From Methylorubrum extorquens (GTDB taxonomy: Bacteria > Pseudomonadota > Alphaproteobacteria > Rhizobiales > Beijerinckiaceae), in assembly GCA_019695455.1 (NCBI GenBank), contig JAEUAC010000027.1, forward strand, positions 1-32,869: a stretch of DNA of 32,869 nucleotides, given 5' to 3'. The notes beneath the pieces are model-generated. The model was not told where the DNA came from. It was given only the letters and a program-made list of their open reading frames with translations, and did not search any database. This document shows positions 23,583-30,586 of the stretch, piece after piece. The first letter of the stretch is position 1. The number at the start of each line of letters is the position of its first letter. The translations under genes and the position numbers were made by a program.

Positions 23583-25250
23583 TCACGGCGACGACCGTCT
23601 CCCGCTCGCGCCGGGATCGGGCGGAGCGACGTCCAGCCAGCCGCGGTAATGCACGACCGGGCCGACGAGCGGCAGCGCGATCGGGACGTCGAAGCGGAAA
23701 TGGCCGTCCTCCTCCCACTCGCGCGCCTCCGAGCGGGGCGCGAGCGCGAGCGGCAGCGGCACGCCGGCGACCGACCATCGGCGCATCGCCATGCGCAGGC
23801 CGCTCCCCTCCGTCGCCAGGTCGAAGGCGAACCGGAACGGTCCGAACCGCTCGACGAGCCGCGAGCCGCCGCGCGAGAGCTCGCTCGTGAAGCGCCGTCC
23901 GGCGAAGTCGCGCGTCCAGCGCTCCACGCCGTCGCGCTCCGCGAACGCGACGTGCAGGGCGTGCTCGCCCGCGGCGGGGAAGCGGAACAGGGCGGCGACG
24001 AGCCGCGCGAGCGGATGGGCGCCGCGCAGGACAACGGCGCGGCCGGAGGCGCCCCCGTCCCGGAGCACGCCGTGCAGGGCCGCGAGCGTGGGTGCGAGGC
24101 CGTCGAAACGCTCGCCCATGACGCGCCGGTAGAGCGGATCGGGCTGGGGGACCTCGACGGTCTCGTGCCGGACGGAGAGGGCCGCGAAGCCCGGGGCGAA
24201 GTCGGCGAGCGCGAGGCTCTCGCCCGCGTCCCGCGCGCCGGGCGCGACCCGGCCGGCGAGCACACGCTCCGCCAGGACGGCCGCCGCCAGCGTCGGGATC
24301 TCGGGCCCGTGCCCGTCCGCCGCGATCAGCGTCCAGCGCCGCTCGACGCGACGCCCGTCGGCCCACCCGAAGAGCCGCACGACCATGCCGGACCGGTCGG
24401 AGCCCCACCGGGCCGTCAGCCGCTGGACCGGCAGGAGGAAACGCGACAGCCGGCGCAGCGAGGGGACGAGTCCCCACCGGACCGGCCAGCTCGCCAGCCA
24501 CAGGCCGACCGACTGGATCGCGAGCTCGGTCCCGGCCCGGAACACGACGGAGGGCCGGCCGGGCAGGCGGTCCGGCAGCAGGTCGAGATCCGGCACCTCC
24601 GCCAGCGCGACCCAGCGGCGGCCGAGCGAGGGTCCGTCCGAGAGCGCGAACCGCTCGCGCCGCAGCTCCTGCCAGCCGTGGCCGGCGACGACCCGCCGGC
24701 CGCGCCACAGGGCGACCGGCCGGCCGACATAGCCCAGGATGGCGGCCGCGACCGACGCGCCGGCCGTCGCCCGGTTGGAGGCGCTGATCGCGATCTCGAC
24801 CGCGCTCACGCGCTCCAGGCCGGCCGCGAGATGCCGCACGACGGCGCCCGACAGCGCGGGCACGCTCGAGCAGCCGGAGAGCACGACGGTTCCGGCGGCG
24901 CGGGCGGCGGCGTCGAGCGCGCCGATGCCGGCCACGAAGTCGCGGGCGTCGGCGAGGTCGAGATAGGGGATCGCGGCCGCGACGCAGGCGGCGGGCACCC
25001 GGGCTTCGCTGCCCTGGAAGGGGCCCGCGGCGTCGATCACGAGGTCCGGCCCCACCGTCGCGAGGAGCGACGCGACGCCGGCGTCGCGATCCGCCCGGAT
25101 CGGACGGCAGCCGGCGTGCCGGAGGCAGAAGGCGGCGGCCCGCGCGCGATGGCGGCCGGCGACCACGACGTCGTGGCCGGCCGCCGCGAGCCGGCGCGAC
25201 AGCCGGCCGCCGAACCCGCCATAGCCGCCGAAGACGAGGATCGTGCTCAT
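23583..25250 (-). CDS. Saccharopine-dehydrogenase-like Rossmann NAD(P)-binding protein with C-terminal DUF4166-like domain
   Basis: MSTILVFGGYGGFGGRLSRRLAAAGHDVVVAGRHRARA; VIDAAGPFQGSEARVPAACVAAAIPYLDLADARDFV; C-terminal region FDGLAPTLAALHGVL...WTRDFAGRRFTSELSRGGSRLVERFGPFRFAFDL...VVHYRGWL. Confidence 0.82.
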   Translation of the reverse strand: MSTILVFGGYGGFGGRLSRRLAAAGHDVVVAGRHRARAAAFCLRHAGCRPIRADRDAGVASLLATVGPDLVIDAAGPFQGSEARVPAACVAAAIPYLDLADARDFVAGIGALDAAARAAGTVVLSGCSSVPALSGAVVRHLAAGLERVSAVEIAISASNRATAGASVAAAILGYVGRPVALWRGRRVVAGHGWQELRRERFALSDGPSLGRRWVALAEVPDLDLLPDRLPGRPSVVFRAGTELAIQSVGLWLASWPVRWGLVPSLRRLSRFLLPVQRLTARWGSDRSGMVVRLFGWADGRRVERRWTLIAADGHGPEIPTLAAAVLAERVLAGRVAPGARDAGESLALADFAPGFAALSVRHETVEVPQPDPLYRRVMGERFDGLAPTLAALHGVLRDGGASGRAVVLRGAHPLARLVAALFRFPAAGEHALHVAFAERDGVERWTRDFAGRRFTSELSRGGSRLVERFGPFRFAFDLATEGSGLRMAMRRWSVAGVPLPLALAPRSEAREWEEDGHFRFDVPIALPLVGPVVHYRGWLDVAPPDPGASGRRSSP

Positions 25251-25290: not shown

Positions 25291-25863
25291 TCAGGGCCGC
25301 CGGACGGTCAGGCCGTCGACGAAGATGTCGACCATGCGCTGCACGCTCTCCTGCCAGCCCGGCCGGTCCTGCAGGTAGCACATGCCCACGAGCGTCCTGA
25401 CGACGTCCTCGGGACCGACGTCGCGGCGGATCTCGCCCGCCGCCACGGCCCGGTCGAGGAGCGCGCCGACCGCGGCCGTCAGGCGCTCGAAGCTGGAGCG
25501 CGTCAGCTCGGATTGTCCGTCGACCACCAGCGCGAGGGCCGCCACCATGCCCTTCTTCGTGGCCACGAACTCGACGTTGGCCCGCAGCCAGTGTCGGAGC
25601 GCATCCGTCGCGCTCGCCTCCTTCAGGAGGTCCTGCGCGAGGTCGGAGAGCTGCTGCACCTCGCGCCGGTAGACCGCCTCGAACAGTTCCTGCCGCGTCG
25701 GGAAATGGCGATAGAGCGTGCCGATGCCGACGCCGGCCGTGCGGGCGACCGTCTCGAGGCTCGCGTCCGGGCCGCCGGCGCTGAACACGGCCTTTGCGGC
25801 CGCCAGCACCCGCTCGCGGTTGCGGACCGCGTCCGCGCGCGGCTTGCGCGCCCCGACCGGCAT
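25291..25863 (-). CDS. TetR/AcrR family transcriptional regulator
   Basis: RNRERVLAAAKAVFSAGGPDASLETVARTAGVGIGTLYRHFPTRQELFEAVY helix-turn-helix; start MPVGARKPRADAVRNRERV at 25863 preferred (ORF track extends to 25908). Confidence 0.92.
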   Translation of the reverse strand: MPVGARKPRADAVRNRERVLAAAKAVFSAGGPDASLETVARTAGVGIGTLYRHFPTRQELFEAVYRREVQQLSDLAQDLLKEASATDALRHWLRANVEFVATKKGMVAALALVVDGQSELTRSSFERLTAAVGALLDRAVAAGEIRRDVGPEDVVRTLVGMCYLQDRPGWQESVQRMVDIFVDGLTVRRP

Positions 25864-25902: not shown

Positions 25903-25931
25903 TTGCAAACCGGAGGCGCCCTCCGTATCTA
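25903..25931 (+). promoter_or_regulatory. Candidate sigma70 promoter with an operator dyad in its spacer
   Basis: TTGCAA (25903-25908), 17-bp spacer, TATCTA (25926-25931); spacer contains CGGAGG-CGC-CCTCCG (25911-25925). Located between the divergent TetR and molybdoenzyme genes. Confidence 0.6.
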
Positions 25932-26057: not shown

Positions 26058-26555
26058 ATGAGCCTCACCGCCACCTTCACCGTGAACGGGGTCCGACGAC
26101 AGGTTGACCTCCCCGACCCGCGCGTCACGCTGCTCGACCTGCTGCGCGAGCGGCTGGACCTCACCGGCACCAAGAAGGGCTGCGACCGCGGGCAATGCGG
26201 GGCCTGCACGATCCTGGTCAACGGGCGGCGCACCAATGCCTGCCTCGCGCTCGCGATCAGCCACGACGGCGCGGAGATCACGACCATCGAGGGGCTCGCG
26301 ACGGACGGCGTCCTGCATCCCGTGCAGGAGGCGTTCATCGCCCATGACGGGTTCCAGTGCGGGTTCTGCACGCCCGGCCAGATCATGAGCGCGGTCGGCC
26401 TCATCGCCGAGGGCCAGGCGGGGATGGACCCGGAGCGGGTGCGCGAGGGCATGAGCGGCAACCTCTGCCGCTGCGGTGCCTATGCGGGGATCACGGAGGC
26501 CGTGCTGGACGCCCAGGCCCGGCTCGACGCGCAGGACCGGAGCCAGGCGGCATGA
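26058..26555 (+). CDS. Xanthine dehydrogenase/aldehyde oxidoreductase family (2Fe-2S)-binding subunit (PaoA-like, no Tat signal)
   Basis: GCDRGQCGACTILVNGRRTNACL and QCGFCTPGQIM...GNLCRCGAY cluster-binding motifs. Confidence 0.95.
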   Translation: MSLTATFTVNGVRRQVDLPDPRVTLLDLLRERLDLTGTKKGCDRGQCGACTILVNGRRTNACLALAISHDGAEITTIEGLATDGVLHPVQEAFIAHDGFQCGFCTPGQIMSAVGLIAEGQAGMDPERVREGMSGNLCRCGAYAGITEAVLDAQARLDAQDRSQAA

Positions 26556-27610
26556 AGACCTTCGACTACGTCCGGCCCGCCTCCGTCGCCGAGGCCGTCG
26601 CGGCCGCGGCCGCGCCCGGCGCCGCCTTTCTCGCCGCGGGCACGAACCTGCTCGACCTCATGAAGGGCGGCATCGCCCGCCCCGACCGGCTCGTCGACGT
26701 GACGCGGCTGCCCGGGCTCGACCGCATCGAGCGGAGCCACGACGGCGGGTTCCGCATCGGCGCGACCGTCCGCAACGCGGACCTCGCCCACGACGCGGCC
26801 TTCGCCCGCGCCTGCCCGGCCGTGGCGGAGGCGCTGCTGTCCGGCGCGTCCGCCCAGCTGCGCAACGCCGCGACCACCGGCGGCAACCTCCTCCAGCGCA
26901 CGCGCTGCCCGTATTTCTACGACACGGCCAGCGCCTGCAACAAGCGCGAGCCCGGCTCCGGCTGCGACGCGCGCGAGGGCGAGAACCGCCTCCACGCGGT
27001 GCTCGGCTGGAGCGACAGCTGCATCGCCACGAACCCGTCCGACCTCTGCGTGCCGCTCGTCGCCCTGGACGCGATCGTCGAGATCGAGGGCCGGGCCGGC
27101 CGGCGCGAGATCCCGCTCGAGGCGTTCCACCGCCTGCCGGGCGACGCGCCGGAGCGCGACAGCGTGCTCGAACCGGGCGACCTGATCGTCGCCGTCCGCG
27201 TCCCGGCCGAGGCGGCCGCCTTCGCCGGCCATGCGCGCTACCTGAAGGTCCGGGAGCGCACCTCCTACGCCTTCGCGGTCGTGTCCGCCGCGGCCGGCCT
27301 GCGGCTCGAGGGGGGCCGGATCGCCGAGGCCCGCATCGCGCTCGGGGGCGTCGCCCTGAAGCCGTGGCGCGCCCGGGAGGCCGAGGCGACGCTCGCCGGA
27401 GCTCCGGCCGGTCCCGAGGCGTTCCGCCGGGCCGCCGACGTCGCGCTGGCCGAGGCCCGGCCCTCGGGCGACAACGCCTTCAAGATCGAGCTCGCGCGCC
27501 GGATCGTGGTGCGCGCGCTGACGCTCGCGGCCGCCGGCACGCCCGACCGGGTCGCGGCGCTGCCCGCCTCCGCCTTCGCCGCATCGACCGGAGCCACCCT
27601 CCATGTCTGA
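26552..27610 (+). CDS. Molybdoenzyme FAD-binding subunit with PaoB-type [4Fe-4S] insertion
   Basis: FLAAGTNLLDLMKGGIARPDRLVDV FAD site; RTRCPYFYDTASACNKREPGSGCDAREGENRLHAVLGWSDSCIATNPSDLCV cysteine pattern. Confidence 0.93.
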   Translation: MKTFDYVRPASVAEAVAAAAAPGAAFLAAGTNLLDLMKGGIARPDRLVDVTRLPGLDRIERSHDGGFRIGATVRNADLAHDAAFARACPAVAEALLSGASAQLRNAATTGGNLLQRTRCPYFYDTASACNKREPGSGCDAREGENRLHAVLGWSDSCIATNPSDLCVPLVALDAIVEIEGRAGRREIPLEAFHRLPGDAPERDSVLEPGDLIVAVRVPAEAAAFAGHARYLKVRERTSYAFAVVSAAAGLRLEGGRIAEARIALGGVALKPWRAREAEATLAGAPAGPEAFRRAADVALAEARPSGDNAFKIELARRIVVRALTLAAAGTPDRVAALPASAFAASTGATLHV

Positions 27611-29857
27611 GATCGCCCTCAACCAGGCGCCCGCCCATCTCCGGCAGGGCTCCAACATCGGCCAGCCGCTGACCCGCCGCGAGGGGATCCTCAAGGTGAC
27701 CGGCGCCGCGACCTACGCGGCCGACAACAACCCGCCCGGGATGCTCTACGCCGTCCTCGCCGTGAGCAGCGTCGCGCGCGGCCGGGTGGCCTCGCTCGAC
27801 GTGGCGGCCGCCAGGGCGCATCCGGGGATCGTCGACGTCATGACGCCCGGGAACCGCCCGGCGCTCGCCCAGGACCCGGACGCGAAGGACCATCCCTTCA
27901 TGTTCCGCATGGAACTGCTGCAGAACGACCGGGTGCGCTACGCCAACCAGCCGATCGCGGTCGTGATCGGCGAGACGCTGGAGGCCGCGACCGAAGGCGC
28001 GACCCTCCTCGCGCCGACCTACGAGACCGAGACCGCCCGCACGGGGCTCGACGGCGGCGAGAGCTTCGCGCCGCCCGCCGTCGGCGTCGGCAATCCGGCC
28101 TCCGTGGACCGCGGCGACGTCGAGGCGGGCCTCGCGGCCGCGTCGCGCACGATCGACGCGACCTACGAGACGCCGGCGCAGTACCACAACGCCATGGAGC
28201 CGCACGCGATCGTGGCGTCCTGGACCGCGGACGGGCTGTCGATCGACACGCCGAGCCAGGGGCTCGCCATGGCGCAGGGGCGCATCGCCGGCCTCTTCGG
28301 CATCGCGCCGGACTCGATCCACATCCGGTCGCCCTATCTCGGCGGCGGGTTCGGCTCGAAGGGCCTGATCTCGGGCCCGCAGATCCTCGGCATCCTGGCC
28401 GCCAAGATGACGGGCCGGCCCGTGAAGCTCGTGCTGCGGCGCGAACAGATGTACGGGCCCGTCGGCCACCGGGCGCCCACGCGCCAGCGGCTGCGGCTCG
28501 GCGCGGATGCCGGAGGGGCGCTGACGGCGCTCGACCACCACACGAGGACGGCGTCGAGCACCTTCGACGACTTCTTCGAGCCCGCCTCCGACATCTCGCA
28601 CACGCTCTACGCGAGCCCGAACCTCGCCACCTCGCACGAGGCGGTGCGGCTCGACACGGGCACGCCCCTCTTCATGCGGGCGCCCGGCGAGGCGACGGGG
28701 TCGATCGCCCTCGAGAGCGCCATCGACGAGATGGCGGAGGCCTGCGGCATGGACCCGCTCGCCTTCCGCCTGAGGAACTACGCCGACGCGGAGCCGATCT
28801 CGGGCAAGCCGTTCTCGTCGAAGGCGCTGCGCGAATGCTACCGGCAGGGCGCCGAGCGCTTCGGCTGGTCGGCGCGCCCGCTCGCGCCCCGGCAGATGCG
28901 CGACGAGGCGGGACTGCTCGTCGGCTGGGGCATGGGCACGGCGACCTTCCCGGCGCTGATGTTCGCGGCCGAGGCGCGCGCCGTCATCCGCCGCGACGGG
29001 ACGGGTCTCATGGAGACGGGCGCCCACGACATGGGCCAGGGCGCCTGGACGGCGCTCGCCCAGATCGCGGCCGACGGGCTCGGCCTCGACATCGACCGCG
29101 TCGAGTTCAGGGCCGGCACCTCCGACCTGCCGGATGCGGGCATCGCCGGCGGCTCGGCCCATACGGCGACCGCCGGCACCGCGCTCCACAAGGCGGGCGA
29201 GGACGCGATCGCGAAGCTCGCGGCGCTGGCCCTCCGGGACGAGCGCTCGCCGCTCTACGGGGCCGGCAACGCGGGCGTCGTCGCCCGCGACGGTCGCCTG
29301 CACCGCCGCGACGACGAAAGCCGCAGCGAGAGCTACGCGGACATCCTGGCGCGGGCGGACGTCCCGTCCGTCGAGGGTCGCGGCAAGGGCGCGGCCGATC
29401 CGGCGGCGCAGGAGGCCTACGCCATGCACGCCCACGGCGCCGTGTTCGCGGAGGTGAAGGTCGATCCCGACCTCGGCCAGGTGCGGGCGACGCGGCTCGT
29501 CGGCGCCTTCGCCATCGGGCGGGTGATCAATCCCCGCATGGTGCGCAGCCAGATCTACGGCGGCATGATCTGGGGCGTGTCGTTCGCCCTGCACGAGAAG
29601 GCCATCGTCGACGCCCGCACGGGCCGGCCCATGAACCCGAACCTCGGCGAGTACCACATCCCCGTGAACGCCGACGTGCCGGCCCTCGAGGCGATCGTCG
29701 TCGACGAGCAGGACGCGCACGTGAACGCGCTCGGCATCAAGGCGTGGGCGAGATCGGCGTCACGGGGTCGGCGGGGGCCGTCGCCAACGCGATCTGGCAC
29801 GCGACCGGGACGCGCGTCCGCGAGTTCCCGGTCACGCTGGACCGCCTGCTCGGCTGA
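27603..29857 (+). pseudogene. Molybdopterin-binding large subunit (PaoC/XdhB-like), apparent -1 nt frameshift at about 29741; functional status unresolved
   Basis: ORF 27603-29909 gives GGGFGSKG, MRAPGEATGS, HDMGQGAWTALAQI, but the expected C-terminus (GVGEIGVTGSAGAVANAIWHATGTRVREFPVTLDRLLG) is only in the frame ending at 29857. Could be a true mutation or an assembly error. Confidence 0.88.
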
Positions 29858-29871
29858 CGACCAGCCCGCCG

Positions 29872-29904
29872 GATGCGGCTCCCCCCTGGAGCCGGCGCCG
29901 CATC
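29872..29904 (+). terminator. Hairpin downstream of the molybdoenzyme operon (terminator-like, no U-tract)
   Basis: GATGCGGCTCC (29872-29882) can pair with GGAGCC (29888-29893) plus GCCGCATC (29897-29904), with a small bulge. Confidence 0.3.
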
Positions 29905-29950
29905 GGTGACAGGATGGATCCCGACCCATGACGAGGATCGGGAGCATCCC

Positions 29951-30586
29951 ATGAGCGATGGCGGGCTGGACGCGAAGGCGCCGATCCGGACGGCGGACGA
30001 GCTTCGGCGGGAATACGGGCCCATCAACCCGCTCGCCGACAAGAAGGTGATGCCGTTCCTCGACACGTTCTGCCGGGACTTCATCGCGCTCTCGCCCTTC
30101 CTCGTCCTCGCCTCCAGCGACGGCGAGGGGCGGGCGGATGCGAGCCCGCGCGGCGACGCGCCCGGCTTCGTCGCCGTGCTCGACGACAGGACGCTCCTCA
30201 TCCCCGACCGGCTCGGCAACAAGCGCGTCGATTCGTTCGGCAACATCCTGGCCGCGCCGGGCGTCGGCCTCATCTTCATGGTGCCGGGCATCAACGAGAC
30301 GCTGCGCGTGAACGGCCGGGCCGCGATCACGCGGGACGCGGCCCTGCTGGCGCCGCTCGTCGCGGGCGGCAAGGTGCCGACCGTCGGCCTCCTCGTCCAC
30401 GTGGACGAGACCTTCTTCCATTGCGGCAAGGCGCTGATGCGCTCGAAGCTCTGGGACGCGGGCGCGCAGGTCCCCCGCGACGCCTTCCCGACGCTCGGCC
30501 GCATCATCGCCGAGCAGACCGCCTCCATCGACGTCGCGACCGCCGAGAAGACCATGGAGGAGGCCTACCGGCTCCGCCTCTACTGA
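29951..30586 (+). CDS. Pyridoxamine 5'-phosphate oxidase (PPOX) family FMN-binding protein
   Basis: FLVLASSDGEGRADASPRGDAPGFVAVLDDRTLLIPDRLGNKRVDSFGNILAAPGVGLIFMVPGINETLRVNGRAAIT; ATG at 29951. Confidence 0.9.
   Translation: MSDGGLDAKAPIRTADELRREYGPINPLADKKVMPFLDTFCRDFIALSPFLVLASSDGEGRADASPRGDAPGFVAVLDDRTLLIPDRLGNKRVDSFGNILAAPGVGLIFMVPGINETLRVNGRAAITRDAALLAPLVAGGKVPTVGLLVHVDETFFHCGKALMRSKLWDAGAQVPRDAFPTLGRIIAEQTASIDVATAEKTMEEAYRLRLY

Follow-up and report, generated by a model that had tools for sequence, protein, structure and literature searches.

The window, by which we mean the whole stretch of 32,869 nucleotides of Methylorubrum extorquens DNA that was analysed, carries a TetR-family regulator gene on the minus strand and a molybdoenzyme operon on the plus strand. 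The regulator gene and the iron-sulfur gene that opens the operon are divergent, with 194 bp between them, and a perfect inverted repeat lies in this intergenic region inside a candidate promoter for the operon. The features are as follows.

25291 to 25863, minus strand: TetR-family regulator gene, 190 aa, TetR_N and SbtR-like C-terminal domain (profile and structure-sequence matches)
25903 to 25908, plus strand: predicted -35 element TTGCAA of the operon promoter
25911 to 25925, no strand: predicted TetR operator CGGAGG-CGC-CCTCCG
25926 to 25931, plus strand: predicted -10 element TATCTA of the operon promoter
26058 to 26555, plus strand: 2Fe-2S subunit of a molybdoenzyme of the xanthine oxidase family; its gene is predicted to open the repressed operon (family searches)
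26552 to 27610, plus strand: FAD-binding subunit (family search)
27603 to 29909, plus strand: molybdopterin-binding subunit, aldehyde-oxidase-like (family and structure-sequence matches)

The regulator, the enzyme and the site

The regulator has a TetR N-terminal helix-turn-helix (PF00440, 49.1 bits against a cut-off of 24) and a TetR-type C-terminal ligand-binding and dimer domain (PF21597 TetR_C_43, 65.6 bits against a cut-off of 27). Its best solved relative by sequence was PDB 2q24 (E 6.8e-42, nearly full length). By this near-full-length match and by the C-terminal domain above its cut-off, it resembles 2q24, which is deposited as a putative regulator, and the SbtR-like proteins (Pfam TetR_C_43) in protein sequence. 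Among the TetR proteins, conservation was 0.93 in the recognition region versus 0.64 in the ligand part, so the DNA-binding domain was far more conserved. About 40 bp behind tetR, on the same strand, lies a gene whose predicted N-terminus is like that of NAD-dependent epimerases (24000 to 25250, minus strand), which may be co-transcribed with tetR.

The three-subunit make-up of the xanthine oxidase family was found in the operon, with PF01799/PF00111, PF00941/PF03450 and PF01315/PF02738/PF20256 all above cut-off. The closest solved structures to the large subunit were the aldehyde oxidase 5y6q (E 3.9e-124) and PaoC 5g5g (E 2.8e-98), and the operon shares with E. coli PaoABC and with 5y6q the set of 2Fe-2S, FAD and Mo subunits. 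However, the operon proteins fell far under the NCBIfam equivalog cut-offs (215 of 322 bits for PaoA and 487 of 1180 bits for PaoC); the enzyme is therefore a relative of PaoABC and not PaoABC itself. By this relation, the substrate is likely to be an aldehyde. In the region 29735 to 29857, the frame of the molybdopterin subunit slips by one base near 29740, just ahead of the conserved GVGEIG segment, and the conserved C-terminus runs on in another frame and ends near 29857; either the assembly is wrong here or the gene is broken. Behind the operon is a pyridoxamine-phosphate-oxidase-like (PNPOx_N) gene (29873 to 30586, plus strand), and the position directly downstream of the operon showed no chaperone gene of the XdhC/PaoD type.

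The segment 25903 to 25931 reads TTGCAA-AC-CGGAGG-CGC-CCTCCG-TATCTA. The 17-nt spacer between the two hexamers contains the dyad, which has perfect 6-bp arms and is centred on G25918. The sequence-only reading had given these letters and coordinates correctly, and the gene coordinates agree with its placing of the dyad between the minus-strand TetR gene and the plus-strand molybdoenzyme operon. Its description of the hexamers as a good sigma70 match, however, was overstated: they share 4/6 and 3/6 positions with the E. coli consensus TTGACA/TATAAT, and a promoter scan of the window did not call the pair. Because the hexamers of the window itself are weak (7/12), the strength of this promoter is uncertain.

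The dyad, on the evidence of the window alone, is not beyond chance. There are 21 perfect 6-3-6 inverted repeats in the window, and CGGAGGN3CCTCCG with at most two mismatches was found 14 times against 11.35 expected. We therefore judged the dyad to be real from its conservation across loci and not from window statistics. We considered whether the regulator has a regulon across the genome from which the window comes and rejected this, as the exact dyad occurs at 2 places in the whole genome versus 3 for the reversed control. Since the second of these places also falls within long overlapping open frames, the regulator looks local.

Conservation of the dyad and of its promoter frame

When the TetR protein was searched against genome contigs, 80 orthologues with 68-79% identity were obtained. 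Bradyrhizobium supplied most of them, and Skermanella, Roseomonas, Paracraurococcus and metagenome bins contributed some. In 79 of them, the regulator gene was divergent to the iron-sulfur gene of this operon, and the exception (L076) lies on a contig covered in part. The set used for counting comprised 106 loci with a divergent TetR and an iron-sulfur orthologue of at least 68% identity; it included the window and the loci added by whole-genome searches, with duplicates removed. Conservation of the dyad at orthologous loci had been named beforehand as a check on its role, and the outcome was clear: the dyad was present with at most two mismatches in 106/106 loci and was perfect in 96. Because Bradyrhizobium accounts for most of the loci, these raw counts overstate independence, and 18 representatives whose TetR proteins are less than 75% identical pairwise were used to correct for that. 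Anchored on the dyad, the representatives held 1.4-1.9 bits of information in the arms, 0-0.5 bits at the three central bases, which vary among loci, and little in the outer flanks.

The conservation extends to the promoter frame. A TTG lay 16 or 17 bp ahead of the -10 element in 110 of the 113 loci tested and in 16/18 representatives. The background for a TTG at two adjacent offsets is 2.5%, which gives a binomial p of about 3e-24 for the representatives. The two representatives that had no TTG at either spacing are distant loci with a TetR identity of 42-44%. The mirror-image CAA on the other side of the dyad was absent in 18/18 representatives, which places the TTG outside the palindrome. 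Its distance from the dyad shifts by one nucleotide, as would be allowed for a -35 element that is read on its own. On the downstream side, TAT stands right behind the dyad in nearly all loci, in hexamers such as TATCTT, TATATG, TATATA and TATAAT. Orthologues carry better hexamers than the window does (TTGAAA, TATATA and TATAAT). The conservation of the TATA bases could come partly from extended operator half-sites (TAWACGGAGG) instead of the -10 element. A rhizobial sigma70 query has been given as CTTGAC-N17-CTATAT (PMC2573895), and its layout agrees with the frame conserved here.

Association of the site with one group of TetR regulators

In 398 genomes of the order, the strict 17-base pattern ACGGAGGN3CCTCCGTATA was found at 18 places and its reversed control at none. 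All 18 places adjoin a TetR relative with 42-69% identity to the regulator of the window; the iron-sulfur gene is present at 15, and a short-chain dehydrogenase gene stands in its stead at 3. A sample of 399 genomes from the phylum added 4 places, all beside a TetR relative, and here the reversed control matched once. Two of these have the iron-sulfur gene, one has a dehydrogenase gene, and one, with tandem dyads, is near an alpha/beta-hydrolase-like gene that was identified by eye from its sequence, not by family search. Across the approximately 800 genomes, the extended site was thus beside a relative of the window TetR at 22/22 places.

The same association was seen from the side of the enzyme. 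At 30 iron-sulfur homologue loci that were chosen regardless of the regulator, the site (at most two mismatches) was found in 15 of the 17 with an adjacent TetR gene versus 0 of the 13 without one (Fisher p 1.8e-6).

Two further arrangements were noticed among the relatives. At L006, L007, L008, L103, L143 and L146, where the TetR relatives have 43-52% identity, there are two tandem dyads about 22-27 bp apart; these loci adjoin a short-chain dehydrogenase gene, except for L146, which is near the alpha/beta-hydrolase-like gene. At L013 and L014, whose TetR relatives are more distant still, a shortened variant, CGGAGAANTCTCCG, precedes the TetR match by about 45 bp and has CAAG behind it. From this variant, the operator seems to drift along with its regulator.

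Proposed mode of control and its meaning

In this study, we believe that the dyad is very probably the operator of the divergent TetR protein, whose dimer would block the promoter of the three-gene aldehyde-oxidase-like operon until a small molecule releases it. In the proposed course of events, a TetR dimer would occupy CGGAGG-N3-CCTCCG and so fill the spacer between the -35 and -10 elements; the bound dimer would exclude RNA polymerase from the promoter of the molybdenum enzyme operon; and a small molecule, plausibly an aldehyde or a related compound handled by the enzyme, would free the repressor from the DNA. The sequence-only reading had already proposed that the divergent TetR binds the dyad and sterically blocks the promoter, and comparison among the orthologous loci and the places found in other genomes supports this proposal well. 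The operator overlaps the promoter of its presumed target, and it is conserved along with the regulator, as promoter occlusion would lead one to expect. We infer binding, and repression rather than activation, from this arrangement. Promoter occlusion by TetR proteins is a standard mechanism that is already known, and the present locus resembles TetR repressors with an operator over a divergent promoter in its divergent regulator gene, its perfect inverted repeat on the promoter, its TetR_N helix-turn-helix and its C-terminal ligand domain. It differs from the textbook cases in the operator, CGGAGG-N3-CCTCCG, and in the target operon.

The dyad might instead serve mainly for autoregulation of tetR, with the operon controlled elsewhere. 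In the window, it precedes the tetR start codon by about 48 bp, its distance from the TetR match is 44-74 bp in several orthologues, and the tandem dyads of some distant relatives could serve two promoters. However, most Bradyrhizobium loci have the dyad closer to the operon (about 112 bp) than to tetR (about 135-150 bp), and the conserved -35/-10 pair faces the operon, a mirror TTG for tetR being absent. The analysis identified no promoter for tetR. We consider this reading improbable as the main role of the site; some autoregulation of tetR in addition to control of the operon is possible. Activation of the operon by TetR from the same dyad is less probable still. Nothing among the present results speaks for it: a few TetR-family proteins are activators, but most are repressors, and a dimer bound between the -35 and -10 elements should block the polymerase.

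The least credible reading is that the inverted repeat arose by chance or acts as RNA, in the form of a hairpin, an attenuator or a terminator: any 6-3-6 palindrome, such as the perfect ones counted in the window, could form a hairpin, but no Rfam match and no terminator-like site was found in the scans, the dyad is upstream of the -10 element and would therefore not be transcribed from the operon promoter, and a perfect site appeared in none of 21,200 shuffled intergenic sequences. The RNA-structure form of this reading was rejected on the 636 arm pairs of the 106 loci, in which there were no two-sided, compensatory changes versus 11 one-sided deviations, mostly at the outermost pair (outer G to A). 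Since only one-sided changes occur, it is the bases that are conserved rather than their pairing, as expected for a protein site.

The operator frame of the TetR relatives, TTG-N2-AA-dyad-TATA, can be compared with the enzymes beside it. These are molybdenum aldehyde oxidase operons, short-chain dehydrogenases and, once, a nearby alpha/beta-hydrolase, with tandem dyad pairs often present at the latter two. We tentatively suggest that these regulators may form one TetR subfamily, mainly of Alphaproteobacteria, in which the promoter-embedded operator stays fixed while the controlled enzyme is swapped; this would suggest that they all sense one class of ligand, for example aldehydes or other reactive carbonyls. 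A literature search, which left most subscription journals outside its reach, found no report of the operator or of TetR control of such operons, and within the same limit, it found no member of this TetR subgroup with a characterised operator. The subfamily is apparently undescribed.

The most interesting extension of these results is that a single promoter-embedded operator is re-used with three kinds of enzyme. If the ligand is an aldehyde, the conserved site would be a ready-made sensor part. The regulation of molybdenum aldehyde-oxidase-like enzymes becomes directly testable, and the TetR subfamily gains a defined operator and targets across many alphaproteobacteria, the retrieved loci being mostly from Bradyrhizobium.
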